Assembly: GCF_000017625.1 (NCBI RefSeq)
Contig: NC_009712.1
Location: 1,178,001 to 1,242,000, forward strand
Source of the DNA: Methanoregula boonei 6A8
GTDB taxonomy: Archaea > Halobacteriota > Methanomicrobia > Methanomicrobiales > Methanospirillaceae
Reading direction: 5' to 3'
DNA length: 64,000 nt
A program made the position numbers and the translations under genes. The notes under the pieces are model-generated. The model was not told the DNA's origin and ran no database searches. It saw only the letters and a list, made by a program, of their open reading frames with translations. Each line of letters opens with the position of its first letter. Position 1 is the first letter of the stretch. Of the stretch, positions 10,085-23,118 are shown one piece after another.

Positions 10085-10561
10085 TTACTCGACAACTACC
10101 GTCAGGTCAAACTTGTTGTGAGGAGCGGTATTCCCGGAGAAACTGGTATATCCGCTTATAGTCTGAACCCCGGTACCGATCACGGTGACATTCCACGCGT
10201 GGGTATACCTCTCTATATGTGCGCTGGTTATGGGATACTGCGAGGGCGTCCTGTTTAGATAAGAATAGTATGTGATGATCCCTTCATCAATAACCTGGAG
10301 ACCGGGACTTGCATCCATCGTCCAATACCCGCCCATCCTCGAAGGATCGGAGAGCTCAATTCTTATAGAATTGTTCAGTTTCGCACAGATAACAGCACCG
10401 TTCTGTGTCGCGTTGATGCTCATAGTTTGTCCTGACAATAATGATTCCGTACATTGTACTGCCGTTGGAGTTTGCTGAACTGAGCCGAGGCATCCCGCAA
10501 CAAGGAGGATTATGAAGAGAATTATCCCGGCCATTACCATTCCCGGTTTTTGTGGATTCAT
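10085..10561 (-). CDS. Exported lipoprotein, chagasin (I42 inhibitor)-like
   Basis: This 158-residue protein has a hydrophobic leader ending in a lipobox-like 'LLVAGC' and then a domain resembling chagasin-type peptidase inhibitors. It has 'IRIELSDPSRMGGYW' in place of the NPTTGYxW loop, then 'ASPGL', and a late 'W-N-V-x-x-x-G-T-G-V-Q-T-I' strand. I42 proteins inhibit papain-like cysteine peptidases; whether this divergent member does so is unknown. I chose ATG at 10561 rather than 10579 because the two paralogues start at the equivalent MxPQKxG, and each lies about 82 nt from the centre of its palindromic operator. Confidence 0.75.
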   Translation of the reverse strand: MNPQKPGMVMAGIILFIILLVAGCLGSVQQTPTAVQCTESLLSGQTMSINATQNGAVICAKLNNSIRIELSDPSRMGGYWTMDASPGLQVIDEGIITYYSYLNRTPSQYPITSAHIERYTHAWNVTVIGTGVQTISGYTSFSGNTAPHNKFDLTVVVE

Positions 10562-10617: not shown

Positions 10618-10653
10618 GGTTTCTGTCCAAAGGTTCCAACAGACCTGTTGGGA
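10618..10653. promoter_or_regulatory. Operator copy 1 (palindrome plus one outer arm)
   Basis: The inner palindrome CCAACAG-AC-CTGTTGG lies at 10636-10651. The outer arm TTTCTGTCC precedes it, but the mirrored right arm is lost. It sits in the 100-nt gap upstream of the leftward lipoprotein gene, next to a TTTAAG element. It is nearly identical to copy 6. Confidence 0.65.
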
Positions 10654-10678
10654 TATTCCGGCTGCTACACTAATTCTC

Positions 10679-11338
10679 CTAAATTCGTCGGTTTCGCCTG
10701 CATATGGATCCCACAATTACCATTGCCGCAATCACCACGACAGGTATTGCCACGGATAAGGGTGATGACCGGGTCGTCGGATTTGTCGGGACATAAATCG
10801 TAGTAGAGACAGGGAAGGGCGTTTCCTGATCGTCCGCGGAATTTGCGGATGGAGAACTTACCGGTAACGACATAATTGCCCCAGTCGGGAGAGATTCAGC
10901 CGGCAGCATGTAAAAGAGCTCGCGGTCATACGCCTGAGCACTGGTAACCATCACGACATATTCCCCCGGGGTAACTGCATCAGGTGTGGGTACCTGGCAG
11001 CAACCGGGCCCGAAAGTCTCCCAGAGATAGGTCGTGGCATTGCACGACCATACATTGACACTGTCCTGTCCTGGCTGGACGGTCACGTTGGCAACCAGTC
11101 CGGACCCGGCACCTCCCGGGTTAAAATTCGTTGTTTCGATCACCAACTGGAGGACATTTCCCGCCGCAAGATTCGTCGTACCATTGATAAAGAAAGGACT
11201 GTCTATCGTATGGTTACCGATAGGATCGATGGTGATGAAGGGTGTTGTTACGGGTGTTACATTTTCAGCGCCGGCTATCGGGATACCTGTGATTACTACC
11301 ATGAGTAGAATCCCTATCAGGAATTCCTTTTTCACCAC
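10679..11338 (-). CDS. Surface protein with GTTNL domain and C-terminal anchor
   Basis: This 219-residue protein has a signal peptide (MVKKEFLIGILLMVVITGIP...), a beta-rich domain beginning 'ITIDPIGNHTI' with the signature 'FFINGTTNLAAGN', a Ser/Thr/Pro-rich linker (about 150-190), then a membrane helix and a basic tail ('CRRNRRI'). This is the layout of an envelope protein tethered outside by its C terminus. The domain resembles the DUF3821-type domain common in Methanomicrobia. It starts at tandem GTG codons (11338 and 11335). It lies 46 nt downstream of the 11385-11978 lipoprotein gene, the same spacing as in the paralogous pair at 18300/19026. Confidence 0.8.
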   Translation of the reverse strand: MVKKEFLIGILLMVVITGIPIAGAENVTPVTTPFITIDPIGNHTIDSPFFINGTTNLAAGNVLQLVIETTNFNPGGAGSGLVANVTVQPGQDSVNVWSCNATTYLWETFGPGCCQVPTPDAVTPGEYVVMVTSAQAYDRELFYMLPAESLPTGAIMSLPVSSPSANSADDQETPFPVSTTIYVPTNPTTRSSPLSVAIPVVVIAAMVIVGSICRRNRRI

Positions 11339-11384
11339 AATTCGATCTCCCTTTTATGCTCCTTGAGCTGCGGTCATTATGGCT

Positions 11385-11978
11385 CTAACTGACAACAATA
11401 GTCCAGTTAAGTGTCTTCTCCGTGCGTGGGTCGTTTGTTATATAGAACTGGAGATTTGCATTTATTGTCTGTACGCCGGTATTTGTCATAGACACATTCC
11501 ATCGGTCTATACCTCGCTCCATTCCCGGTCCGTTATACGTTTCAGCCGCTTCTTCTGTGAGAGGAGTCCCATTCATATAATAATGATACAAAGTTACACC
11601 CTCATCGGTGATCTGAAGACCGGGACTCGCATTCATTATCCACTGATGACCGGTTCTAGACGCATCTACCAGTTCGAGAGTGAGTGAACTGCCCGGCTTT
11701 GCACAGATAGTAGTACCATCCTGCGTTTCGTTTATCGTTACATTTTGTCCGGGTACTAACGTTGCCGAACAGGGCCCAACCACTGGGGCCACAGTCAGGT
11801 TTTGCTGAATCGTCACTGTTTCCGTCACCGTTTGCACTGGGGACAGCGATGGGGAAGGTTGCACGGATGCATTATTCAGGTCCGGCTTTTGCCCGTCGGA
11901 CCCGAGACAGCCGACCGATAACACAACTATGAGAAGAACCATCCCGACCGCTACCCCTCCTAATTTTTGTGGAATCAT
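11385..11978 (-). CDS. Exported lipoprotein, chagasin (I42 inhibitor)-like
   Basis: This is a 197-residue paralogue of the lipoprotein at 10085, with leader 'MIPQKLGGVAVGMVLLIVVLSVGCLG', a Ser/Pro-rich spacer, and the inhibitor-like domain. Visible family features are 'DGTTICAKPGSSLTLELVDASRTGHQW', 'ASPGLQI', and 'RWNVSMTNTGVQTI'. Other members of the I42 family are periplasmic or secreted cysteine-peptidase inhibitors; the target here is unknown. It is the first gene of a leftward operon (lipoprotein, surface protein, lipoprotein), and operator copy 2 lies 82 nt before its start. Confidence 0.78.
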   Translation of the reverse strand: MIPQKLGGVAVGMVLLIVVLSVGCLGSDGQKPDLNNASVQPSPSLSPVQTVTETVTIQQNLTVAPVVGPCSATLVPGQNVTINETQDGTTICAKPGSSLTLELVDASRTGHQWIMNASPGLQITDEGVTLYHYYMNGTPLTEEAAETYNGPGMERGIDRWNVSMTNTGVQTINANLQFYITNDPRTEKTLNWTIVVS

Positions 11979-12036
11979 TTTTACCGCAAGATCCTTTTCC
12001 TATTATGTCACTTTTTCCGGTTCCTGCCGTTTAAGG

Positions 12037-12083
12037 TTTCTGTCCAGAGATTCCAACTGCCAGTTGGAAAATGGGGACACAAA
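12037..12083. promoter_or_regulatory. Operator copy 2 (nested palindrome)
   Basis: The inner perfect palindrome TTCCAACTGCCAGTTGGAA is at 12051-12069. Outer arms TTTCTGTCC (12037-12045) and GGACACAAA (12075-12083) are placed symmetrically about the same centre, 12060, with one mismatch. An AT-rich TATA-like element flanks each side (TTTAAG to the left, AAAAGATAAAA to the right). The nearest gene is the leftward lipoprotein starting at 11978. Confidence 0.75.
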
Positions 12084-12302
12084 AGATAAAACCCTGCGCC
12101 GGGATATTTTTAACGAGCCTAAACTGATGATCGGTACAGGTGACGTGATATTTTGAGGACCTGTCAATCCTTTGTGGGGGAATTCGATAAAGCATTAGTA
12201 AAAAATTCATGTATACTCCCTAAAGACGTTACAAAAACACAAGAAAAGTTACGTATCGGCATATCCTGTGTACATGCCAGCTGATCTGCTCTGAATGAAA
12301 GA

Positions 12303-13004
12303 TTGTTGATATTCATGGTTGTAGAGGGATATACTGGAATCCAATGGGCGCTCAAAAATTCGTTTGTTCTCGTTGTACTGGGTGTTGTATTTCTCTACAT
12401 CGTCATGGGACTGGGTCTTCTTGGGACTTCCCTGCCCGTTATCGTTCTCGTCCTTCTTTTCGTCCTTATCATTCCCGCCCTCATTTACCGGGTTTTAAGA
12501 AAAATCGTTGATCCGGTTCCATTCTGGCTGCCTCTGTTTCCGGTCATTCCGGTAATCGTTCTTTTCTCCAGCGGTCATCTCGGTGGAGCAGGCCTTCTCG
12601 AAAATATCATCATCCCGTTTTCCCTGATATTCCTGCTCTCCACTTTGGCAGTGATCGGCCCCTACCCTCTTTTTGAGGAAAAGATCGGTGCAAAAAACCC
12701 CTGGCAGGTATTTACCCTTATGTCATTTGTGGGTGTGGCTCTGTTCTTTTTCTCGACCATGGGAGAGAGCCTTGCGGGGCAGCCGCTGCCACAATATTCC
12801 TCTACATTCCCTCTTTCCGGTTGGATTTTTGATGGCCTGGCAAACATTCTGCATCTTCAGGATGTCGTCTACGCATTCGATTCCCACGTGTACAGTATTC
12901 TCTGGGCCTGCTCTTTTTACCTTGAGGTTTTTTTCGTTGCATTCCTGTATTATGCAGTGCTGGGCTGGGTCTCGTCTGCCAGTGCCGATACAGGCAAGGC
13001 ATGA
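12303..13004 (+). CDS. Polytopic membrane protein, unknown function
   Basis: This 233-residue protein has about six hydrophobic helices (near residues 20-40, 43-65, 72-92, 103-122, 140-158, 195-220) and short polar loops. I see no catalytic or transport motif. It runs opposite to the neighbouring surface-protein genes and has no operator copy immediately upstream; copy 2 is 240 nt away. A start at 12315 (MVVEGY) is also possible. Its place inside the island suggests an envelope-linked job, which is inference only. Confidence 0.7.
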   Translation: MLIFMVVEGYTGIQWALKNSFVLVVLGVVFLYIVMGLGLLGTSLPVIVLVLLFVLIIPALIYRVLRKIVDPVPFWLPLFPVIPVIVLFSSGHLGGAGLLENIIIPFSLIFLLSTLAVIGPYPLFEEKIGAKNPWQVFTLMSFVGVALFFFSTMGESLAGQPLPQYSSTFPLSGWIFDGLANILHLQDVVYAFDSHVYSILWACSFYLEVFFVAFLYYAVLGWVSSASADTGKA

Positions 13005-13099
13005 ACTGATGTAGCACGGGGGCCGGACCTTCATATCACGGGCATACGCAGTTTTTCTCATTTATCACCGGTACGACCTTGTTTATATTACCTGAGCGT

Positions 13100-13122
13100 C
13101 AGTTGGGAAATTTGGACAGAAA
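13100..13122. promoter_or_regulatory. Operator copy 3 (half-site, decayed)
   Basis: CAGTTGGG at 13100-13107 and TGGACAGA at 13113-13120 match the right half of the operator in copies 5 and 7. A TATA-like TTTATATTA at 13082-13090 stands to the left, but the left half between them is missing. It lies between two convergent genes with no gene to serve, so it is probably a remnant of a lost promoter. Confidence 0.55.
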
Positions 13123-13135
13123 CAGGGTCGGTTTT

Positions 13136-13201
13136 GTTGCGTCTGCGGTTGTCTGTACATTCTTTTAACGTGAAAAATTCATCAACAACCGCCAACGCAA
13201 C
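13136..13201. other. Long inverted repeat between convergent genes
   Basis: Two 17-nt arms, 13136-13152 (GTTGCGTCTGCGGTTGT) and 13185-13201 (ACAACCGCCAACGCAAC), pair at 15 of 17 positions across a 32-nt loop. It sits between the rightward membrane-protein gene and the leftward surface-protein gene and could act as a bidirectional terminator or be the end of a small element. The rest of the 13005-13304 gap holds only the decayed operator. Confidence 0.6.
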
Positions 13202-13304
13202 AGCACCGGTGTGGCATTATTTGTTATGTCCGGCTAAAAAGGGAAAAAAGATCTGGATCTGATATTCCCCACGTGCGTAGCGACAAATACTCCACAGATA
13301 TCAC

Positions 13305-14243
13305 TTACTTGTTTTTCCTCTTGGAAACTCCCACCCAGACAAGACTGATTATAGCGAGGATACCTGCAATACTGAAAAACAATACCGGTGTTCCGGAAGC
13401 ACCAGTGGTGTTACTCCCGACGACTCTGAACTCGGCGGTCCCGGTACCCGTAATATTGGATTTCTGCCAGCCGACCGTTACAAAATAATCCCCGGTGGGA
13501 AACGTCCCGGGACTGACAGCAAAGGACCACGTGTTTGAGTCTGTCCCCGAATGGACTGCAGTGGTCGTGGAATATACCGGCTGCATGGTCTGGTTGGAGA
13601 TGTTATGGAAAATCACCACGTTGAGAAGATTTTCGGTACCTACATTTGTCGTCCCGCTGAAGGTAATGGGGGTTCCGGAATCCCGGTTTTCAAGGACGGA
13701 TGCATTTGCACCATCAAAATCAATTACGGGCTCTTCAACAATGAAGAAATACGGCGCAAAGGAATCGTCAACCCCGGAACGGTTTGAGGCTGATACAATG
13801 GAATCTACTTTGGATGAAACCGAGGTTGTAAAGTCTCCTGCGGGCCCGATATCTGCGCAGGTTTTTCCTTGATCCATGATCGTGATAGAGCCGTTTCCGG
13901 AAACATTCGGTTCAATCTCAAATTTCCGGTTTGCTCCCGGGTCCTGGACGATAAACGCATACTGGCCACTGGAAAAATTTCGGGTCACTGCCGGATCCAG
14001 AGTATATGAGAAAGTGCCATCACTGGACGGGTTTACGGTATCAACCGCAAAATAATTTTTCCCGACGATCCAGATCGCAACGGTCCCGTTGTCTGCACCG
14101 GTTCCATTGATCGTGAAATGATCACCCTTTGCAAGGGTGAGCGGACGACTGGATGTAAATGACACCGAAGCTGCAACAGGTATGATCATAATGACAATCA
14201 TGATAAGAGCAACGCCGCTTGCTTTTCCAATACGTACGTTCAT
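13305..14243 (-). CDS. Surface protein, DUF3821-like, C-terminally anchored
   Basis: This 312-residue protein has a signal peptide (residues 1-27), a first beta domain with 'FTINGTGADNGTVAIWIVGKNYF' typical of the methanogen DUF3821-type repeat, a second domain with 'ITFSGTTNVGTENLLNVVIF', and a C-terminal membrane helix followed by 'SKRKNK'. The parts between are rich in N-x-S/T sequons, so it is probably N-glycosylated. It starts at ATG 14243 behind a GGAGG ribosome site and 22 nt after the propeller protein, so it is the last gene of a three-gene leftward operon that begins at operator copy 4. Confidence 0.82.
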   Translation of the reverse strand: MNVRIGKASGVALIMIVIMIIPVAASVSFTSSRPLTLAKGDHFTINGTGADNGTVAIWIVGKNYFAVDTVNPSSDGTFSYTLDPAVTRNFSSGQYAFIVQDPGANRKFEIEPNVSGNGSITIMDQGKTCADIGPAGDFTTSVSSKVDSIVSASNRSGVDDSFAPYFFIVEEPVIDFDGANASVLENRDSGTPITFSGTTNVGTENLLNVVIFHNISNQTMQPVYSTTTAVHSGTDSNTWSFAVSPGTFPTGDYFVTVGWQKSNITGTGTAEFRVVGSNTTGASGTPVLFFSIAGILAIISLVWVGVSKRKNK

Positions 14244-14265
14244 GGTTTAATCCTCCGAAATGTGG

Positions 14266-15594
14266 TCATAGTCGCTTCACTTTCCTTGATGCTCCTAAAG
14301 CTAAGCAGACTGCACTGACACCGGTCACCGGGATGAGCGCGGAGAGCGATGCCCGTGTTGGTGTAGGACGCGTTCCGGCCACGGGAGGAACCGAAAGGGT
14401 GGTGCCCGCCGGAGAAGTCACGTTATTTTCCGGCATGGCCGGAGCCGGCGTTGCCGTAGTTGTATCGGCCGGGGGCAGGTTGTCTGCCCTGAATAATGAA
14501 AGTGCTGGTGTATCGCCCCGGGTATCTTCAACCAGGAACAGGCCGTCAGAATATCCCACGATGTTTTGATCGGTCCAGGAAGGTAAAATCTGCCAGGTAC
14601 TCCCGGTCCGGATATCGAATATTTTATCCTGACAGGATTCCTCGTTGGTGGCCTTGTCGGCCGCGTTGTACGCCGGACATTCAGTATATACTGCGTAATC
14701 ACCGAAGATAAAGTCAAGATTCTGGTCCATTGACGTTGAAGGAACGGTCTGGGTCGTTCCCGATGATATCGTGTAAATAGAGACCCGCCAGAGAGGCCGC
14801 GGCGTCGCGAGCGGGTTCCCGAAATCCGTCCACCCGATATAGTTACCGGAAAGTGCAGCCTGGCCCTTGAGACCCGGTTCGGGACAGACAACCGTGTCCT
14901 TTCCGGTCACGATGTTGTAGAGGTTGATACTGCTCTCTGTGGCCGGACCGGAAGTATCAGTAACATCCTCATCATACGCATACCAGATAACATTTTCTCC
15001 GTTAATCTGTAGGCCGCCTTTCGCAGAAGGCGATTCATTGATGAGGGTCATCTCGTCTGTTGTCGTGTTTAAAAATGCGATGTCTGCCTTACGATAGGTT
15101 CCTGAAGGATATCCCTGGAACCAGACAACCCGGTCCCCATACACTGACGGCTCCCATCGTTGTATGCCCGGAAAGCCATTCCAGAAATAGGTCTTTTGTG
15201 AACCGGTAGTGTTTGTGTTCGGGATAATGTGATCGCGACCCAGGGCTATCGTATACTCATGCAATATGTTGGAATCGTTTGACCATACAATGGTACCATC
15301 AGACATTGTGTAACCGTCCGGCATTATCATTCCACCGGGTGACATTGCTATGAGCCGGGTGGAATTATCCGTAAGAGAATAAAGATAGAGCACTCCGCCA
15401 GCACTAATGTTATTCCAGAGAATGGAATCACCAGAAAAAATGAAAGAAGACGATTGCTCCGTGATGTTATCTGAGAGGATTTTCCCGACAAAGGTGAGGT
15501 TCATATACTGCACCTCTGTTGCAGGGGAGAGAGGGATCAGGATAAGCAGCGACAGCAGCCCGACAGACAGGATCCTTCTTATTGTTTTTCCCAT
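14266..15594 (-). CDS. Exported beta-propeller-like protein
   Basis: This 442-residue protein has a signal peptide (MGKTIRRILSVGLLSLLILIP) and repeated blade-like units of the form 'G-D-x-V-V-W ... I-x-L-Y-N-x-x-T-G-x-x' (for example about 105-120, 160-180, 205-240, 265-300, 305-350). These resemble TolB/WD40-like propellers. They are followed by a Thr/Pro-rich linker and a C-terminal membrane helix with 'SRKVKRL'. Its role is probably binding at the cell surface. The start overlaps the end of the small membrane protein gene by 16 nt, and a GGAGAAG ribosome site precedes it. Confidence 0.75.
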   Translation of the reverse strand: MGKTIRRILSVGLLSLLILIPLSPATEVQYMNLTFVGKILSDNITEQSSSFIFSGDSILWNNISAGGVLYLYSLTDNSTRLIAMSPGGMIMPDGYTMSDGTIVWSNDSNILHEYTIALGRDHIIPNTNTTGSQKTYFWNGFPGIQRWEPSVYGDRVVWFQGYPSGTYRKADIAFLNTTTDEMTLINESPSAKGGLQINGENVIWYAYDEDVTDTSGPATESSINLYNIVTGKDTVVCPEPGLKGQAALSGNYIGWTDFGNPLATPRPLWRVSIYTISSGTTQTVPSTSMDQNLDFIFGDYAVYTECPAYNAADKATNEESCQDKIFDIRTGSTWQILPSWTDQNIVGYSDGLFLVEDTRGDTPALSLFRADNLPPADTTTATPAPAMPENNVTSPAGTTLSVPPVAGTRPTPTRASLSALIPVTGVSAVCLALGASRKVKRL

Positions 15595-15875
15595 GTCTTC
15601 TCCAGTACATCCAGTTTATTTTCGATTCGTGTGATCGATTGCTGGAGCAAAAGCAGGGTCTCCGGATTTTCAGAGAGTGGGTTCATTTTTTTCATTGCGT
15701 CAAGGTATCGTTCCTGCCGGGTGTCCAGCCAGTCCTTTAATGAGTCAATTAGCGCATCGATAAAAAGCATAGCCGTAATCCCGGCCCAGAGAATCCATAA
15801 ATTGGTCATCATACAATACAATGATACCAGCGCGAATACGACAAGAGCTAAAACAGTTTTCACTTCTTTTTTCAT
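15579..15875 (-). CDS. Small membrane protein with coiled-coil tail
   Basis: This 98-residue protein has two closely spaced hydrophobic helices (about 7-25 and 28-45), then a charged amphipathic region with heptad-like spacing (about 48-95, 'DWLDTRQERYLDAMKK' and 'LLLQQSITRIENKLDVLEKTWE'). It is the first gene of the leftward operon with the propeller and DUF3821-like proteins and has a good GAGAGAGG ribosome site. The cytoplasmic coiled coil suggests it forms oligomers or binds a partner; nothing more can be said. Confidence 0.7.
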   Translation of the reverse strand: MKKEVKTVLALVVFALVSLYCMMTNLWILWAGITAMLFIDALIDSLKDWLDTRQERYLDAMKKMNPLSENPETLLLLQQSITRIENKLDVLEKTWEKQ

Positions 15876-15967
15876 TCAGGTACCTCTCTCTAGTAGGTAG
15901 CATGTATTTTCGGTTCAGGTGACCGAGGGTATTCACAGATGGATGTTCAGCACCTTTTCGTTTTATA

Positions 15968-16016
15968 TTTTCTGTCCATATTTCCCAACGGGCAGTTGGG
16001 ATCTTCGGACAGAAAA
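15968..16016. promoter_or_regulatory. Operator copy 4 (nested palindrome, divergent promoter)
   Basis: The outer arms TTTTCTGTCC (15968-15977) and GGACAGAAAA (16007-16016) are perfect inverted repeats. The inner element CCCAACGGGCAGTTGGG is at 15984-16000, and both share the centre 15992. A TTTTATATT box abuts the left arm. The site lies between the leftward operon starting at 15875 and the rightward lipoprotein at 16093. Confidence 0.8.
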
Positions 16017-16092
16017 CCTATTTTGGTTCATTGCGTAAGAAGGATACAGGAGTAATCGTTCCTCTCAGGGGGAATGAACATATGCTGATACC

Positions 16093-16677
16093 ATGAGCGT
16101 GAAAAAGGGTTGGGCTTGGTTGTCAATCCGGCCCGGTTACATCTGTGGAGGACTTCTCCTCTTTTTCTGTGTGGTGCTGGCAGCCGGCTGTTTATCATCG
16201 TTTTCCGGGCCGGGGAATGCCAGCCTTTCCCCATCCTCATCCATGGTCTCGGTGTCCCCCGTATCGCAAGCATCAGGCCAGTGCCCGCAGGAGACAGCTG
16301 CAGGAAATGTCACGAATGCATCGGAGATCATTTTTGATCCCACACCCGGTCATGTATTTGGTGACACTTTCACCTTCTCCGGGACTACGAATTTGGCAGC
16401 CGGGGAAACTCTGTCACTGAAAATACTCTCCACCGAATTCACACCCTGCGCAAAAGGCACCGGGCCTTCAGATTTAGTGTCCGCCTGCAGTGGGGGATAC
16501 TTCGATACAGTTATAATCCAACCGGGGAATTGTGGCGTAAATACCTGGACATGGATGGTTGATACGTCACAACACGGATTCCAGCCTAACCACCAGTATA
16601 TTCTTACTGCAAGCGGGAGATCTGGCCAAGTACAAAACAGTACGCTCTTTGAAATCCTGAATTCAACGGAGAAATAA
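16093..16677 (+). CDS. Exported lipoprotein with GTTNL domain
   Basis: This 194-residue protein has a leader with a clear lipobox 'VVLAAGC' (about residues 26-32), a Ser-rich spacer, and one surface domain with 'FTFSGTTNLAAGETLSLKI' related to the C-terminally anchored proteins of the island. Four cysteines in the domain could form disulfides. It lacks a C-terminal membrane helix, so it would be held by its lipid. It is the only gene of its kind on the plus strand and is divergent from the propeller operon across operator copy 4. Confidence 0.78.
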   Translation: MSVKKGWAWLSIRPGYICGGLLLFFCVVLAAGCLSSFSGPGNASLSPSSSMVSVSPVSQASGQCPQETAAGNVTNASEIIFDPTPGHVFGDTFTFSGTTNLAAGETLSLKILSTEFTPCAKGTGPSDLVSACSGGYFDTVIIQPGNCGVNTWTWMVDTSQHGFQPNHQYILTASGRSGQVQNSTLFEILNSTEK

Positions 16678-16803
16678 ACAAATCTCATCTTTTAATAGAA
16701 AATCTAGTGAACAAGATATTCTATCTTGACCCTGGACCGGAGAACAGATGCCAGTTTTCTTTATATTTTTTATTGAGGCGAGGAGTAATCACTAAAAAAA
16801 AAG

Positions 16804-18033
16804 TTAATGAGTTGTAAAAATTAAGGGATGGCTGATTGTATTGGGCCAGTAGGCCGAATTCGCGATATTTAAGATCAGATTGGAGAAAATTGCTCTCTGA
16901 TAATCTAACGTGATAGATGATGGACTGCAATTATTACCACTGGTATCCGTTATAATGAATGTGTAAAACGGTGTCGCTCCAGGCATGTAGGTGACATTAT
17001 TTCCAGCCCACGATTCAAGATAAACCTCAGTGTTTACATTTGAATTAGGCATGCTGTTTACAACACTATATGTAGCGGTGGGCATGCCAGAAACTGAAGT
17101 ATCTCGTGCAAGTATTGTCCATGTTGCCGTCCCCGGACTATATGACATTTGGCCTAAAATGACATCTCCCGCAGATACACCAGTAACCTCAGTTGAGTGT
17201 CCGGAAGATATACTTCCAAAAATAACCCACGATGCTAAACTCCACTCATCAGGGGAAGTTTTAGTGTTCCATTGCAAAACCGGCTGGATTAATTCGGGCA
17301 TCCCAAGTATAGGGGAGTTTCCGATTGTCTGGATTCCATTCCAAAGGAACACCGGATAATGGACAATTCCACCTGTGACAGGTGTATCATTAGAATATTG
17401 TGGATTTGAGGGCACCGTCCAATATGTAACATAATTGCTAAGAGACGATGATGTCGGAGTTCCATAAATTCCTTCAACATATGAGTTCGGATCTGACAAA
17501 CCTGGAGTTGGTGAGAATGTTTTCGAATTTGTAGATGCTCCTTCATCAATTTCTCTAAAGAGCAATACGTTATGATACGATACATACGTAGTATTCCCCC
17601 ACGTAAGAATTACCGAGCCTGAAGGGAATCCAAACACGTGGGTTGCCGGCATGGATCCTGCAGGCGTTGGTATTTCAGGAGAATTTGCATCCCGCGCAGC
17701 AAATAATTGATTTCCATTTGAATCAAAGACAGTTGTTACTCCGCTTTTTGAGTGATAGACGATTGAGCCATAAGGTATCTTCGAAACATCTGGATTCTGG
17801 GATGTTGCAAGAAGATTGGTAATATCTGATGGCCGGGTAGTGAGGGCCGGATCCAACTCTGTTTTTACAGTTGCATAGTTCTGGGAATTGTTAAAGTGCA
17901 ATTGTGGAACGGATAATGTACTAACATCAGATACTAAGGAATAATTAATTTCCTTTGCGTTCACCATCGGTACCGTCACCATCGCTGCGAGCAGGAATAC
18001 AAGCAGGATGATGCCAACTTTCAGTGTTTTCAT
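16804..18033 (-). CDS. Exported glutamic-peptidase (eqolisin, G1)-like protein 1
   Basis: This 409-residue protein has signal peptide MKTLKVGIILLVFLLAAM, a pro-like segment (about 30-200) shared with the protein at 20397, and a C-terminal domain (about 203-365) with the layout of family G1 peptidases: 'YWTVPS', 'FLWNGIQ', 'LIQPVLQW', 'SLASWVIFG', 'VSAGDVI' and 'VYLESW'. The candidate catalytic pair is Gln250 and Glu340. Eqolisins are acid endopeptidases; activity here is inferred, not shown. The start is ATG 18033, just after AAAGGGGGG. An upstream in-frame start would add 34 residues before the signal peptide. Base composition is clearly more AT-rich than the rest of the window. Confidence 0.62.
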   Translation of the reverse strand: MKTLKVGIILLVFLLAAMVTVPMVNAKEINYSLVSDVSTLSVPQLHFNNSQNYATVKTELDPALTTRPSDITNLLATSQNPDVSKIPYGSIVYHSKSGVTTVFDSNGNQLFAARDANSPEIPTPAGSMPATHVFGFPSGSVILTWGNTTYVSYHNVLLFREIDEGASTNSKTFSPTPGLSDPNSYVEGIYGTPTSSSLSNYVTYWTVPSNPQYSNDTPVTGGIVHYPVFLWNGIQTIGNSPILGMPELIQPVLQWNTKTSPDEWSLASWVIFGSISSGHSTEVTGVSAGDVILGQMSYSPGTATWTILARDTSVSGMPTATYSVVNSMPNSNVNTEVYLESWAGNNVTYMPGATPFYTFIITDTSGNNCSPSSITLDYQRAIFSNLILNIANSAYWPNTISHPLIFTTH

Positions 18034-18275
18034 CTTTTTATCCCCCCTTTTTTGATACGCTCCGCTCTCCGGCTGGGATCTGCACAATCCTGATTCTTTT
18101 ACGCCATCAAGCGTTCCAGGGCCCCGGACGATCATAAGACTGGGATTATCGTCAGGAGCCCTGCGGAATACCCGAAAGTATTCACAGAGGGGTATTCAGA
18201 AATTGTTCATTTTATATTCTTTGTCCACAGTTTCCAACTGCCAGTTGGGAAATTTGGATAGAAACAGGATCTATC
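17958..18275 (-). repeat. Promoter-leader-signal-peptide cassette, copy A
   Basis: The operator, about 150 nt of untranslated leader and the signal-peptide codons are nearly identical in DNA to 21601-21920, upstream of and into the second eqolisin-like gene. Outside this cassette the two genes are strongly diverged. Confidence 0.75.
18218..18264. promoter_or_regulatory. Operator copy 5 (nested palindrome)
   Basis: The inner palindrome TTTCCAACTGCCAGTTGGGA lies at 18231-18250, centre 18241. Outer arms TCTTTGTCC and GGATAGAAA are placed symmetrically, with a mismatch. The TATA-like TTTTATATTC abuts the left arm. It is 208 nt from the start of the leftward eqolisin-like gene; no rightward gene is present. 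Confidence 0.75.
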
Positions 18276-18299
18276 CCATTTCTGAGCGGGATTTTACCT

Positions 18300-18968
18300 C
18301 TACCTGTTCCTGCCCGTCGAGTACAGAACCACAATCCCGACTATTGCTACCAGTGGCACTATGAGAGAAAGGGGCGAAGCAGAGGTTGGAGAAGGCGGAG
18401 GAGGTATTGCCCCGGTTTGGTTCAATGACAACGTGGTTGTGGGAGTTTGCGAGGGAGTATGAGTCCCTGTAGGTATTGATGGAGTATTCGGTTCCACCGA
18501 GGAAATGGCGAATAATTCAGAATGTGCTGTAATGTTAAACTTAGGTGAACTTACAGATCCGATAAAATTACCAAAATTAAAATATTCGATATCGTTAGTG
18601 GATTGATGAGCCCCCACTAAACGGGTTACCCAAAGTGTTGGGGTAATGTTACAGGACCAAAAATTTGCCCCATTTTCTCCCTGTAGGACAGCAACATTTG
18701 CTGTAAAACTGGATCCTTCGCCTGAGGGATTGGCCCAGTTGGGACCGATAAATATGGATACATTTTCGGAAACCGGTAAATTCGTCGTTCCATTCATAAA
18801 AAAAATCTCATTGACCGTATGATCCCCGATGGGATCGATGGTAATGTAATATGGTTGAGACGCGTTCGTCTGATTGATACCATTATCTCCCCCGTTGTCT
18901 GCAGCAGCGGCTATCGGTATGCTTGTTATTATTACCAAGAGTGTGATGCACATCAGGAATTTCTTCAT
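18300..18968 (-). CDS. Surface protein with GTTNL domain and C-terminal anchor
   Basis: This 222-residue protein has signal peptide MKKFLMCITLLVIITSIPIAAA, domain 'ITIDPIGDHTVNEIFFMNGTTNLPVSENVSIFI', a Pro/Thr/Ser linker, a membrane helix (about 200-218) and a basic end. It is a paralogue of the proteins at 10679 and 19650. I chose ATG 18968; two in-frame GTG codons lie just upstream. It follows the lipoprotein pseudogene, reproducing the lipoprotein/surface-protein pair at 10679/11385. Confidence 0.78.
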   Translation of the reverse strand: MKKFLMCITLLVIITSIPIAAAADNGGDNGINQTNASQPYYITIDPIGDHTVNEIFFMNGTTNLPVSENVSIFIGPNWANPSGEGSSFTANVAVLQGENGANFWSCNITPTLWVTRLVGAHQSTNDIEYFNFGNFIGSVSSPKFNITAHSELFAISSVEPNTPSIPTGTHTPSQTPTTTLSLNQTGAIPPPPSPTSASPLSLIVPLVAIVGIVVLYSTGRNR

Positions 18969-19025
18969 TGTCACGATCACGGTCTTCCGTTTTACACTTC
19001 CTGAGCTGCGGTCATTATGACAGAT

Positions 19026-19526
19026 CTAACTGACGACAATAGTCCAGTTGAGCGTCTTAAGAGTGCGAGGTTCGGGTTGTATATACCGTTGGAGGCTTCC
19101 GTTTATCGTCTGTATCCCGGTATTTGTCATAGTGACATTCCACCAGTCCACACCACGTTCAATATATGCCCATGCCCATGTGTCAGGTACTGGCGAGTTT
19201 GAGGTTGAGAGAAATTTCCCATTCATATCATAGAAATAATAAGTCATCCCCTCCTGACCGATCTGGAGACCGGGACTCGCGTTTATTATTCACTGGTTGC
19301 CAACCTGAGATGAATCGTTCAGTTCGAGGGTGAAAGTACTGCCCGGTTTTGCACAGATTATGGCATTATCCTGTGTTTCATTTATCGTCAGGTTTTGTCC
19401 CGGTACTAACGTTACCGAGCAGGGCACCGGTGGCTTTTGCACGGCTGACCCGAGGCAGCCGGCCGAGAGGACCACCATGAGAATGACCGCGCCGGCTATT
19501 ACCATTCCCGGTTTTTGTGGAATCAT
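19026..19526 (-). pseudogene. Chagasin-like lipoprotein gene broken by an in-frame TGA
   Basis: The frame starts at ATG 19526 (MIPQKPGMVIAGAVILMVVLSAGCLG, lipobox) and runs through the inhibitor-like domain to 19026. It is interrupted by TGA at 19290-19292 after 'SSQVGNQ'. The paralogue at 11385 has Trp (TGG) at this exact position ('TGHQW'), so one G-to-A change accounts for the stop. Reading continues in the same frame with 'IINASPGLQI' and a good family end 'TLNWTIVVS'. Only a leader plus a short stub would be made unless the stop is read through. Confidence 0.8.
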
Positions 19527-19584
19527 ATTCACCGTAAGACCCTTTTCTTATTATTTCACTTTTTCCGGTTCCTGCCGTTTAGGG

Positions 19585-19617
19585 TTTCTGTCCAAAGGTT
19601 CCAACAGACCTGTTGGG
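19585..19617. promoter_or_regulatory. Operator copy 6 (palindrome plus one outer arm)
   Basis: The palindrome CCAACAG-AC-CTGTTGG is at 19601-19616 with TTTCTGTCC to its left, as in copy 1, and the right outer arm is absent. Its centre is about 82 nt from the ATG of the broken lipoprotein gene. It lies in the gap after the surface-protein gene at 19650. Confidence 0.65.
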
Positions 19618-19649
19618 GTACTCCGGCTGCCACAGTAATTCCCCTGAAT

Positions 19650-20276
19650 TCATCGTTTTCCCCTGTACAGGGACTTTGTGATCGCAAGCGCTGCAATTAC
19701 CGCGAGGGGCAGCAATACCGTAGGAAACGATGATGACGGGGTCGTTGTACGGGGTGCTGCGCCGGTGGTAGGTTGAATCATAGGAGAACTTTGAGTAGGA
19801 ACTGTAACGATTGTTTGGTTTGGTATGATGTTTTCTGGTGGTAACAAGAAAAATAATTGGCTGGCTGAAACAGTGGAATCCTGGTTGAGCCAGACCGCTG
19901 CAACATATTCACCCGGTACAGCACCAGGTACTGGTCCGGGGAACGTTATCCATCGATCTGTGGTAGCATTAACGGACCAGAAATTGACCCCGTTCTCTCC
20001 CGGTTGAATTGAGATGTTTGAATCGAAACGGGATCCCCATCCCGCAGGAGTAAAAGATTCACTAGCTGTCCAAAAGTGAATAGAATCATTCGAGACCGGC
20101 AGATTTGTGGTCCCATGAATTAAGAGCACATCGTTAATGGAATGGTTCCCGATGGGATCCATCGTAATAAACAAAGTTGTATTGGAAGTTACATTTTCAG
20201 CATATACTACCGAGACCGTTAGAATTGCCATAATAATTATTGCAAACATTGTGAGAACTATTATTTTCAACGTCAT
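19650..20276 (-). CDS. Surface protein with GTTNL domain and C-terminal anchor
   Basis: This 208-residue paralogue of the proteins at 10679 and 18300 has a signal peptide (MTLKIIVLTMFAIIIMAILTVSVVYA), 'ITMDPIGNHSINDVLLIHGTTNLPVSNDSIHF', a Thr/Pro-rich linker, a membrane helix and the basic end 'SLYRGKR'. It follows the second eqolisin-like gene by about 120 nt on the same strand and precedes operator copy 6 and the lipoprotein pseudogene. The start at ATG 20276 is preferred over the GTG at 20291, without strong ribosome-site evidence. Confidence 0.76.
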   Translation of the reverse strand: MTLKIIVLTMFAIIIMAILTVSVVYAENVTSNTTLFITMDPIGNHSINDVLLIHGTTNLPVSNDSIHFWTASESFTPAGWGSRFDSNISIQPGENGVNFWSVNATTDRWITFPGPVPGAVPGEYVAAVWLNQDSTVSASQLFFLLPPENIIPNQTIVTVPTQSSPMIQPTTGAAPRTTTPSSSFPTVLLPLAVIAALAITKSLYRGKR

Positions 20277-20396
20277 TTCAATCACTTTCACTGCTGATTT
20301 GAATTACATTTGTTAAATAAAACGTTACCCGATGTTGTCTTGTGCGGAGATCCGGAGTTCAATTTTACCGAATGTTAAAAAATAAATTTTGGGTTG

Positions 20397-21674
20397 TTAG
20401 GTTCCCAGGGTAATGCTCGTTGGCCAAAGATTTGAGATCGATAATCCATAGGTTGAGGGATTCCAATAATTAGTATTGTAATATCCTGACATAGGATAAT
20501 TTGAGATAAGATTATTTCCATTACTGTCTTTTAACACAAAACTCTGGAACGTGATAGGTCCGCATAAATATTGTGAATTCAGGCCACCCAATGGAGTTGT
20601 TGGATCCCACCCTTCCAGTACTATCTCTGCCTGCAGATTTGTAGTTGGCATTCTTATAGGCGCTGAGCTTTTGGCAAGGAAAAGCGTTGAGCTGCCTCCA
20701 CCTTGATTGCCCAAATCCGTAATTGATGCTATGCCATCATATCCCAGTGTATTTAACTGGATATTTCCCTGCATCTGATCACCTGAGTAAATTCCAGAGG
20801 TTCTGGTCGAGTGAATAAATGAATTGCCACTCCCCCATACATACCATGTTGCCATGGTCCATTGTGGAGTACTGGGGCTTGGAATTTGGTAACCGTCTTT
20901 CATATACCATTCAAGAACTGGCTGCAATAAACTGGGGTCATTTTCAAGTCCATTCCAGATCTCCAACGACGAATCATAATACACACTTCCAATAACCAAA
21001 CTTTTCGTAAGGGTTGGTTTAGTTGGAACGTTCCACTGAGATATGAATTGCCCAACAGCAGTGGGTATAGCATTAGTTGAACCCCATTCAATCCATTGCG
21101 GACTGATTGTCGAGGAGCTACTCGCCGTTAAAGCGCTGTTTTTCCCAGAGATGCTATCATCGGTAACTGTCAGGATTAACATATTATTGCTAAATACGTA
21201 CAGCACATTGCCCATGTCATAAATTACTGATTTGTCGGGAACTTCCTGAACATGTGTCGCTGGCACACGTCCTTTAAACGTGCTTACGAGACCTGCTTTA
21301 CTATCGTCTGCAGTAAAGAGTTGTTTTCCCGTAGAATCAAATACCGTTGTAATACCATCAATCGAGTGATGAATAATTGCACCGAAGGGTATTTTGGATA
21401 TTGCTGGATTGCTTGCTCCTTCTACCATCCTCGCAATCTGAGTACTTTGGATATTTGGGTCAAGGCTCATTTCATCGTTCATCACGATTGGCGTTTGATT
21501 TTTGTCATAAATGAGTTGGGGCAGTTGAATTTTACTGACATCAATTGTCGATGCATTCGTTTGATTGGGAGATGCGATTACTGTACTTTGCTCAATCGCA
21601 CTCACCATCGGTACCATCATCATCGCTGCGAGCAGGAATACAAGCAGGATGATGCTAACTTTCAGTGTTTTCAT
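20397..21674 (-). CDS. Exported glutamic-peptidase (eqolisin, G1)-like protein 2
   Basis: This 425-residue protein has signal peptide MKTLKVSIILLVFLLAAMMM, a pro-like segment sharing 'SKIPFGAIIHHS-GITTVFDS-GKQLF' and 'PATHV' with protein 1, and a C-terminal domain with 'QWNVPTKP', 'IWNGLEN', 'LLQPVLEW', 'TMATWYVWG', 'YSGDQMQGNI' and 'IVLEGW'. The candidate catalytic pair is Gln251 and Glu354, aligned with Gln250 and Glu340 of the first paralogue. Overall sequence is strongly diverged beyond the signal peptide. ATG 21674 follows AGGGGG. The assignment to G1-like fold is by motif order only; neprosin-like or other carbohydrate-binding jelly rolls are alternatives. Confidence 0.62.
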   Translation of the reverse strand: MKTLKVSIILLVFLLAAMMMVPMVSAIEQSTVIASPNQTNASTIDVSKIQLPQLIYDKNQTPIVMNDEMSLDPNIQSTQIARMVEGASNPAISKIPFGAIIHHSIDGITTVFDSTGKQLFTADDSKAGLVSTFKGRVPATHVQEVPDKSVIYDMGNVLYVFSNNMLILTVTDDSISGKNSALTASSSSTISPQWIEWGSTNAIPTAVGQFISQWNVPTKPTLTKSLVIGSVYYDSSLEIWNGLENDPSLLQPVLEWYMKDGYQIPSPSTPQWTMATWYVWGSGNSFIHSTRTSGIYSGDQMQGNIQLNTLGYDGIASITDLGNQGGGSSTLFLAKSSAPIRMPTTNLQAEIVLEGWDPTTPLGGLNSQYLCGPITFQSFVLKDSNGNNLISNYPMSGYYNTNYWNPSTYGLSISNLWPTSITLGT

Positions 21675-21920
21675 GGTGTCATTCCCCCTATTTTTTGATA
21701 CGCTTCGCTCTCTGGCATGGGATCTGCACAATCCTGATTCTTTTACGCCATCAAGCGTTCCAGGGTCCTTTAAAGATCATAAGACTGGGATTGTCCTCAG
21801 GGACCCTGCGGAATACCCGGAAGTATTCACAAAGGGGTATTCAGAAATTTTTCATTTTATATTTTCTGTCCACATTTCCCAACTGCCAGTTGGGATCTTT
21901 GGACAGAAAACGTAAGTTAT
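21601..21920 (-). repeat. Promoter-leader-signal-peptide cassette, copy B
   Basis: This is the partner of 17958-18275. The signal-peptide codons, leader and operator match nearly base for base, with scattered substitutions. The similarity fades a few codons after the signal peptide. Confidence 0.75.
21862..21910. promoter_or_regulatory. Operator copy 7 (best nested palindrome, divergent promoter)
   Basis: The perfect outer arms TTTTCTGTCC (21862-21871) and GGACAGAAAA (21901-21910) surround the perfect palindrome CCCAACTGCCAGTTGGG (21878-21894), all centred on 21886. TTTTATATT abuts the left arm. The site lies between the leftward eqolisin-like gene (start 21674) and the rightward secreted protein plus regulator (start 21942), and would cover the transcription start of the regulator operon. 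Confidence 0.82.
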
Positions 21921-21941: not shown

Positions 21942-22385
21942 ATGTCCAAAAGACTGGGACTATTTGTGATGGTGGTGCTCTTACTGTGCACCGCATCAGC
22001 AGTTGTATCGGCAAAGGAATTATCGGTGTCTCTCCCCGGCAACGGGGGATACACCATCACACCCGGTCATAGCACCGGGATCATTCCCCTGACGGTGTAC
22101 AATTCCATTACGCAGGGGCAGACAAACTGGGAATCAAAAAGCGTTTCCTCGTATATCACTACCCTCAATGTAAATCTGAACTGGGGGAATCCTTCCAATT
22201 CCTTGCAGCTCACCATCTATTCCCCCGACGGATACGTATTCGGCCCGTATTACGATAGTTCCGACGGGGTCACTGATGGCCGTATTGATCTTACCATCCA
22301 GAACAGCAATGGAATTGCAGAAGGAACATGGTCGTATAAGGTGTACGGCTACAGCGTCTCTGGAACACAAACTTATTCCATATGA
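21942..22385 (+). CDS. Secreted small beta-sandwich protein
   Basis: This 147-residue protein has a signal peptide (residues 1-24) and then one beta-rich domain resembling the pre-peptidase C-terminal/P-domain fold ('LNVNLNWGNPSNSLQLTIYSPDGYVFGPYYDSSDG...GTWSYKVYGYS'). The mature N terminus contains 'GGYTITP' (35-41), which recurs as 'GGYTVTP' at 23-29 of the regulator encoded 19 nt downstream. It is co-transcribed with that regulator from operator copy 7 and may serve as its extracellular ligand or co-sensor; this is inference. Confidence 0.75.
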   Translation: MSKRLGLFVMVVLLLCTASAVVSAKELSVSLPGNGGYTITPGHSTGIIPLTVYNSITQGQTNWESKSVSSYITTLNVNLNWGNPSNSLQLTIYSPDGYVFGPYYDSSDGVTDGRIDLTIQNSNGIAEGTWSYKVYGYSVSGTQTYSI

Positions 22386-22404: not shown

Positions 22405-23118
22405 ATGAAAAATGCAACAAAGGTACTTCTCTTTTTTTTGCTTTTTTCTTTTATCATTGCCGTTGCGAGCGGAGGATATACGGTTACACCCTATGTCACG
22501 CCATACTCGCTTTCGACCGGCCCCTATGACGCATCTGGTGCAGATGCACATGTATCCTTTTTCCAGCTGCCTCTCTGGATACAGATCAGCTGTATTACCG
22601 GTGCGGTACTCGCTTTTCTTGCCCTTTTCAAATGTATCCCTCTGGTCCTTGGCAGGGTCGAAGAGCTGCTGGACAACAAAAACCGGCGCGCTATCCTTGA
22701 TTATGTCGGCAGCCATCCCGGCTGTACTATCACAGACATTTCACAAAACACAGGTCTCAACCGCGGGACGGTCAAATACCATCTCTTCCTCCTGCTCCGG
22801 GAACAAAAAATTGTCCGGAAAAACGATGGTAACAAGATGTACCATTTCAAAAACGGCGGAGCAAGTCCCGAGAGAAAACAGGAATATGGGTATATCCGGA
22901 ATCCCCGGAAACGGGAGATCCTCATGGCAATCCTCAACGAGCCTGGCATCAGCAACGCCACTCTAGCAGAACGCCTGCATCTCGACAAAAGCTCCGTTCA
23001 CCGGCACCTGCACCAGTTCCTTGAAGAAAAGATGATCGAAAGCCACTGGGACGGGAAAAATGTGGGCTACACCGTTACACCGGAAGTGGCGAAAATGCTT
23101 GCGGAGTTTTCTGAATAA
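22405..23118 (+). CDS. Membrane-anchored regulator with two winged-helix domains
   Basis: This 237-residue protein has a signal/anchor helix (about 7-22), an external loop of about 33 residues starting 'GGYTVTP', a second membrane helix (about 56-82), then two winged helix-turn-helix domains in the cytoplasm. They span about 93-150 ('CTITDISQNTGLNRGTVKYHLFLLL') and 166-232 ('ISNATLAERLHLDKSSVHRHLHQFLEE'). This is a one-component membrane transcription factor design known in methanogens. It is the only DNA-binding regulator gene in the island and lies behind operator copy 7, so it is the natural candidate to bind the seven palindromes and control itself. Confidence 0.85.
   Translation: MKNATKVLLFFLLFSFIIAVASGGYTVTPYVTPYSLSTGPYDASGADAHVSFFQLPLWIQISCITGAVLAFLALFKCIPLVLGRVEELLDNKNRRAILDYVGSHPGCTITDISQNTGLNRGTVKYHLFLLLREQKIVRKNDGNKMYHFKNGGASPERKQEYGYIRNPRKREILMAILNEPGISNATLAERLHLDKSSVHRHLHQFLEEKMIESHWDGKNVGYTVTPEVAKMLAEFSE

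Follow-up and report, generated by a model that had tools for sequence, protein, structure and literature searches.

The window analyzed here is a stretch of 64,000 nucleotides of the Methanoregula boonei 6A8 genome (contig NC_009712.1, positions 1,178,001 to 1,242,000). Between 10.6 and 21.9 kb, its intergenic regions carry an unusual element, an inner palindrome CCAAC-N5/6-GTTGG placed inside outer inverted arms with the same centre. A preliminary description had proposed seven copies of this nested palindrome as the operators of a self-contained surface regulon. The island comprises six nested palindromes and one half-copy, the half-site at 13100, and is followed by two genes that we call sec and REG, the latter encoding the candidate regulator. 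The copies and the two genes are as follows:

10618..10660, minus strand: copy 1, half-site facing the lipoprotein gene to its left, with GGACAGAAA and then TTAAAC on the minus strand
12035..12085, no strand assigned: copy 2, two back-to-back half-sites, the left one pointing to the lipoprotein gene 11385 and the right one, followed by GATAAAAC, to the membrane-protein gene 12303
13100..13122, plus strand: copy 3, lone half-site CAGTTGGGAAATTTGGACAGAAA between convergent genes, facing no target gene
15968..16016, no strand assigned: copy 4, full dyad between the divergent genes 15579-15875 (minus) and 16093-16677 (plus)
18216..18265, no strand assigned: copy 5, dyad whose left half points to the secreted-protein gene 16804-18033 (minus) and whose right half is degenerate
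19583..19625, minus strand: copy 6, built like copy 1 and facing the lipoprotein gene 19026-19526
21862..21910, no strand assigned: copy 7, the most symmetric dyad (21 of 24 pairs), between the divergent genes 20397-21674 (minus) and 21942-22385 (plus)
21942..22385, plus strand: sec, first gene of the sec-REG pair, for a predicted secreted stand-alone PPC-like beta-sandwich protein of 147 amino acids; dyad centre at -56
22405..23118, plus strand: REG, candidate regulator with predicted membrane helices at residues 4-22 and 57-89 and winged helices at 92-149 and 169-224

Exact inner palindromes were located in the window at 10636, 12053, 15985, 18234, 19601 and 21879. When the 48-bp positions of the window were ranked by symmetry, the top five included the island copies centred at 21886, 15992, 12060 and 18241, and the best positions outside the island equalled the fourth island copy (17 of 24). 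The seven copies of the preliminary description are thus present where it had placed them, and the outer arms of copies 4 and 7 are perfect over 10 bp, in line with the symmetry claimed for them. The right outer arm is absent in copies 1 and 6; copy 1 retains the mirrored inner arm and has no gene to its right. A TATA-like element is located on the minus strand immediately left of copy 7, at about 21853-21863. The distances to the start codon, described as constant within each gene class (82 nt for the lipoproteins, 208 and 212 nt for the two genes then named 'eqolisin-like'), were correct. The three 82-nt copies show 89-92% identity over 79 promoter-side bases and their proteins 36-54%, and copies 5 and 7 show 89% identity over 227 bp and their proteins 34%. 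As the promoter-side DNA is far more conserved than the proteins, the regular spacing reflects a conserved (or gene-converted) promoter-leader region rather than seven independent coincidences, and the idea that the constant distances are the trace of a recent duplication was dropped.

In the entire genome of 2,542,943 bp, the exact motif with N5 has four matches, all within the island, and that with N6 also four, two of them within the island. A sequence model derived from the six copies recovered the island copies only, the next-best match having an E-value of 0.11. The claimed confinement of the motif to 10.6-21.9 kb therefore extends to the genome as a whole, and the scattering of copies over the genome that had been named beforehand as counting against a local regulon was not found. 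Credible copies occur in the island only, and the element is likely to be the regulatory site of a local regulon. The model also matched other genomes of the genus and family, and a broader model from 17 sites matched more of them. In eight loci with the same layout the motif is centred at -56 to -58 from the sec start codon. Conserved across genomes are the outer GGAC(A) and the inner CAGTT/AACTG cores, and one inner pair position varies symmetrically (CCAAC/GTTGG, TCAAAC/GTTTGA, TCGAAC/GTTCGA). RNA-style pair counting found this symmetric variation at one inner pair position in eight sequences and near-invariant outer arms; because covariation on the dyads is limited, the counting was used as support only. 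The sec genes beside the motif in other genomes encode proteins with 51-66% identity to that of the window, and the REG orthologues following them, where the contig continues, have 46-57% identity, compared to at most about 33% for other family members. Records carrying the window-type regulator include metagenome-assembled genomes of Methanoregula and Methanocalculus chunghsingensis. Where the motif was present and no REG orthologue was in view, the assembly was mostly fragmented, and in several cases the contig stopped at sec; an exception (G035) is taken up below.

Read outward from the dyad, the half-site consists of the inner arm CAGTTNGA, about 6-7 bp, the outer GGACA, AGAAA, 3-5 bp and a TATA-like tract, followed by the gene. 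Lone half-sites with no mirror image occur before genes in several genomes, e.g., at L071:3866, L227:8573 and L228:4528 and 1597 (numbers preceded by L and G denote our loci and genomes); L225/L226 contain six of them, all on the plus strand, and Methanocalculus retains only the sec-adjacent half. Judged from these sequences, the functional unit is therefore a directional half-site facing a gene, and the nested palindrome consists of two halves back to back at divergent promoters. The palindrome itself, earlier regarded as the unit, was rejected in this role once the lone half-sites turned up. In most cases the gene faced by a half-site encodes a signal peptide; the distance is about 32 nt for sec, 58 nt for lipoproteins and 120-245 nt for other exported proteins. 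The dyads are flanked left and right by TATA-like tracts whose distance from them is fixed; at the promoters on the sec side, the TATA box is a poor one (TTAAG). Of the outer arm, which had been taken as operator in full, only GGAC(A) keeps this role as the specific part; the terminal AGAAA is probably the side of the promoter formed by the B recognition element (BRE), because all operator types have similar A-rich ends. In L225/L226 (G228:C1:2849744-2865484), the six lone half-sites, TTGTTGGAGACTCTGGACAGAAA, are near-identical and accompanied by a seventh on the opposite strand that faces sec; we read four of the six as facing genes for exported proteins, and both proteins that were tested match metallopeptidases of the M12 type.

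With a sec profile, sec was detected in 110 of 232 genomes of the order Methanomicrobiales, and a REG-type gene directly follows it in 98 of the 106 sec genes read. Dyads with at least 16 of 24 pairs were present in 45 of 86 distinct upstream regions, the corresponding shares being 1.0% in shuffles that preserved dinucleotides and 0.8% in windows taken within genes; with at least 18 of 24 pairs, they were found in 24 of the 86 regions, compared to 0.06% and 0%, respectively. They cluster at -66 and -56, and their sequences are common within regulator clades and different between them. The half-sites of 43 modules can be aligned gap-free, only the distance from the dyad centre varying by clade; a sister clade has the same half-site with 8-9 bp instead of 1 bp between the halves. 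Because motif and orthologue co-occur and the motif types follow the regulator clades, the 22405 protein, which had been suggested to read the sites, is the best candidate for this role. M. boonei itself has a second island at 360-371 kb, with a paralogous sec-REG pair at 366-367 kb and its own half-site GGTAGACNNNNGCGTTAGAA. Allowing two mismatches, this half-site occurs six times in the whole genome, always between 360.0 and 371.4 kb. One copy faces sec; the genes faced by three others have a signal peptide resembling that of the window targets, and one of these three genes encodes a C39-family peptidase. The regulon is thus not unique but one of many in the order.

The AlphaFold2 model of REG predicts hydrophobic helices at residues 4-22 and 57-89 with a short loop on the outside, and two winged helices in the cytoplasm; Pfam HTH_24 matches the protein in two stretches (E 4e-18). 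The window's sec has no match to the PPC domain PF04151 above the Pfam cut-off, yet it aligns with the sec paralogue of the same genome, which passes it (35.8 bits, cut-off 25.9), and its structure model matches C-terminal domains of subtilases (best match 5fax, E 2.4e-4). The near-constant pairing of sec and REG, as in other regulator-partner pairs, suggests that sec is a sensing or stabilising partner of REG. A motif GGYxVxP is common to the outside loop of REG and the start of mature sec in many modules and is possibly a common binding segment.

To compare protein and site divergence, arm divergence in 36 non-redundant modules was regressed pairwise on the divergence of recognition helix 1, recognition helix 2 and the rest of the protein. 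The outer arm gave values of 0.26 for helix 1 and 0.10 for helix 2, the inner arm 0.27 for helix 2 and 0.08 for helix 1, and the divergence of the BRE/TATA part was predicted by neither helix. A scan with 9-residue windows (about 145 protein windows) put the recognition helix of winged helix 2 on top as predictor of the inner arm, while the top windows with the outer arm were the recognition helix and wing of winged helix 1 and the start of winged helix 2. When clades were left out in turn, the link between inner arm and winged helix 2 was retained (0.14-0.29). Single modules show the same pattern. In L145/L148, outer arm and helix 1 are changed and the inner arm and most of helix 2 are kept. 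L165, a distant regulator, has the outer arm and helix 1 (NRGTARYH) of the window type and a different inner arm and helix 2, and its sister L166 combines the inner arm of L165 and a similar helix 2 with another outer arm and another helix 1. The preliminary description had left open whether two dimers or one protein with two DNA-binding domains read the element; as the inner arm tracks winged helix 2 and the outer arm, less robustly, winged helix 1, the latter fits better.

From these patterns we infer that REG binds the sites. In the mechanism that we favour, with a probability of roughly 70%, the sites would be promoter-proximal REG operators, each half-site bound by one subunit using both winged helices: the second (C-terminal) one would read the inner arm CAGTTNGA and the first one the outer GGACA. 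The outer arm would abut the BRE-like AGAAA and the TATA box of a promoter pointing away from the dyad, and REG would most likely activate by helping TFB/TBP onto the island promoters. At divergent target genes, the nested palindrome would arise from two adjoining half-sites of opposite orientation and represent a bidirectional promoter, and the dyad of copy 7 would also drive sec-REG and thus permit autoregulation. Activation and autoregulation are favoured because the sites immediately precede the BRE, a position at which archaeal activators such as EarA and TFB-RF1 bind, and because the sec-side TATA box is poor. The output would be exported peptidase-like proteins, possible inhibitors and surface proteins, and the secreted PPC-like sec probably reports outside conditions to the short external loop of REG.

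If REG were instead a repressor, the protein bound at the half-site would cover the BRE side, and an outside signal would release it and turn the hydrolase genes on. The outer arm ends in AGAAA and so overlaps the probable BRE, and many autoregulated archaeal regulators repress. However, the sites are upstream of the TATA box and not over or beyond it, and both the single directional half-site facing each promoter and the poor sec-side TATA box (TTAAG) suit activation better; we regard repression as rather unlikely. The A-rich, BRE-like AGAAA-like end common to all operator types could also mean that two proteins read the nested element, REG and a second factor on the outer arms, e.g., TFB or another general factor. 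GGACA, in contrast, is type-specific and the same in both halves of most dyads; it changes together with winged helix 1 in L145/L148 and L166, L165 shares both with the window type, and the spacing between inner and outer arm is rigid in the 43 modules. A second reader is thus quite improbable. From the similarity of copies 1, 2 and 6 and of copies 5 and 7 over 80-230 bp it might be concluded that promoter-gene units were recently duplicated as segments and that the copies are relics of this event that lack a regulatory role, but promoter-side identities of 89-92% contrast with protein identities of 34-54%, orthologous sites in other genera have inner arms that are changed yet symmetric, and unrelated regulators are accompanied at this position by dyads of their own, which leaves very little room for this explanation. 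We give even less credence to RNA hairpins or terminators: perfect inverted repeats are able to form hairpins, but the palindromes precede TATA boxes and most of them separate divergent genes, half-sites also stand alone and then form no hairpin, and there was no Rfam match.

Several observations weigh against the activator mechanism with one REG subunit per half-site. When the window's own clade is omitted, the link between outer arm and winged helix 1 falls to 0.06, which makes the outer-arm half of the pattern weaker, and pairwise regressions leave part of the shared ancestry in the data. About half of the sec-REG modules, mostly distant ones, have no long dyad by the gapless measure used. 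G035, a nearly complete genome, has two half-sites like those of the window (type 1) and no type-1 REG. Half-sites facing no obvious gene are present in the window at 13100 and 18242 and at L069:9939 and L071:2376, and copy 5 retains its degenerate right half at a place with no gene.

The candidate targets in the window and the genes beside the copies are listed below:

10085..10561, minus strand: lipoprotein with a weak chagasin-like (I42 inhibitor) match, candidate target of copy 1
11385..11978, minus strand: lipoprotein with a weak chagasin-like (I42 inhibitor) match, candidate target of the left half of copy 2
12303..13004, plus strand: membrane protein, faces the right half-site of copy 2
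15579..15875, minus strand: small membrane protein left of copy 4, conserved beside the orthologous module in L047
16093..16677, plus strand: lipoprotein with similarity to an S-layer family (MEMAR), candidate target of the right half of copy 4
16804..18033, minus strand: exported protein, paralogue of 20397 (34% identity), candidate target of copy 5
19026..19526, minus strand: lipoprotein, paralogue of 11385 with one in-frame stop, candidate target of copy 6
20397..21674, minus strand: exported protein, named 'eqolisin-like' earlier, with a conserved signal peptide, candidate target of copy 7

The matches of the lipoproteins to chagasin I42 (PF09394; 25.1 and 20.7 bits) are below the Pfam cut-off of 27.2 and indicate a resemblance only. 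The label 'eqolisin-like' was not confirmed, as neither 16804 nor 20397 matched a Pfam family or a relevant PDB sequence that would identify them as eqolisins (glutamic peptidases G1); an invariant Q and E are present in both proteins, which may be distantly related to eqolisins. Candidate targets in other genomes match the peptidase families C39 and M12 (reprolysin-like). In correction of the proposed surface regulon, the targets comprise mostly peptidase-like exported proteins, possible inhibitors and S-layer-like proteins. The in-frame stop in 19026-19526 (minus) occurs where the paralogues have an intact frame, and its promoter half-site is intact. The signal peptides of exported targets are almost the same, about LLALLLAAMAMVPMVSA, even across protein families, as would be the case if these proteins took a single route of export or sorting.

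Exported-protein targets of both regulon types also have a conserved 5′ leader of 120-200 nt, located in the window at 21675-21860 (minus) and 18034-18215 (minus); the alignment further included L047, L070, L068, L048, L045, L046, L227, L228, L052, L233 and L053. A hairpin near the expected transcript start has eight pairs, four of them changed on both sides in some sequences, and GAGCGGAGCGTAT is found 17-32 nt ahead of the start codon. This 13-nt element precedes 15 genes whose signal peptides are all of one kind. The leader had no match in Rfam and may be an undescribed leader RNA. At L069:9939 (minus) and L071:2376 (minus), a well-conserved half-site, TATA box and leader hairpin occur with no recognisable exported-protein gene within about 400 bp. 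In L052 (6380-6445) and L233, which belong to G035, the type-1-like half-site lies beside a half-site of another regulator type (like that of L155), and these mixed divergent operators are upstream of two exported-protein genes in this genome lacking a type-1 REG.

For the Methanomicrobiales as a whole, we tentatively consider it possible that a large regulator family exists in which each member has a secreted PPC-like partner and a private operator, read by winged helix 1 in the outer and winged helix 2 in the inner arm, and that these pairs form independent, self-insulated channels. Such channels would sense the cell exterior, for instance via proteolysis or release of sec, and, acting on bidirectional promoters, would drive the expression of distinct islands of secreted hydrolases. 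If this is true, dozens of naturally diverged sec-REG pairs represent a readable two-part recognition code; related archaeal gene pairs, each with its own version of the switch, form a natural data set on DNA recognition. In dozens of modules, the sequence alone suffices to match regulator, operator and targets, so that predicted binding and the effect of swapping helices are open to direct tests. The system would give a first logic for the control of secreted hydrolases in methanogens and would supply archaeal genetics with a set of insulated operator-regulator pairs. Of the membrane-bound regulators of archaea, very few have been investigated so far, and Methanomicrobia reportedly contain many of them (PMC10269533).

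In the literature searched, a search thin on subscription journals, there was no description of the sec-REG pair, its operators or its targets. REG as modelled fits the definition of transmembrane transcription regulators (TTRs), with a DNA-binding domain and at least one transmembrane region in one protein. TTRs are a known and widespread kind of regulator, and archaeal ones are reported to be enriched in Methanomicrobia (PMC10269533). Like these one-component proteins, REG combines membrane segments with a DNA-binding domain, but its family is distinguished by two tandem winged helices, the near-constant presence of a neighbouring gene for a PPC-like secreted protein, and two-part operators that are private to each clade. 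ArnR and ArnR1 of Sulfolobus acidocaldarius are membrane-bound activators of surface-structure genes, and their boxes are inverted repeats, TCGAC-N5-GTCGA, upstream of BRE/TATA (PMC6396743). REG resembles them in function, with inverted-repeat boxes at a similar position, and not in architecture: ArnR has an N-terminal helix-turn-helix, a HAMP and a sensory domain and two C-terminal membrane helices, whereas REG has N-terminal membrane helices and two C-terminal winged helices, so that the domain order of the ArnR family is reversed. The operators of EarA of Methanococcus maripaludis (PMC5512572) and TFB-RF1 of Pyrococcus furiosus (PMC5937170) are located immediately upstream of a weak BRE, and recruitment of TFB was proposed for the former and shown to cause activation for the latter. 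All operator types described here have this layout, with the outer arm followed by AGAAA-like and TATA-like elements at a fixed distance. Unlike the short single-part sites of EarA and TFB-RF1, which as described are not membrane-tethered, they are divergent composite dyads with clade-private sequences. As a purely functional analogy, sec-REG resembles ToxR-ToxS and TcpP-TcpH of Vibrio, in which a membrane-tethered regulator has a partner exposed outside the cytoplasmic membrane, the difference being that sec is predicted to be a free secreted PPC-like domain.

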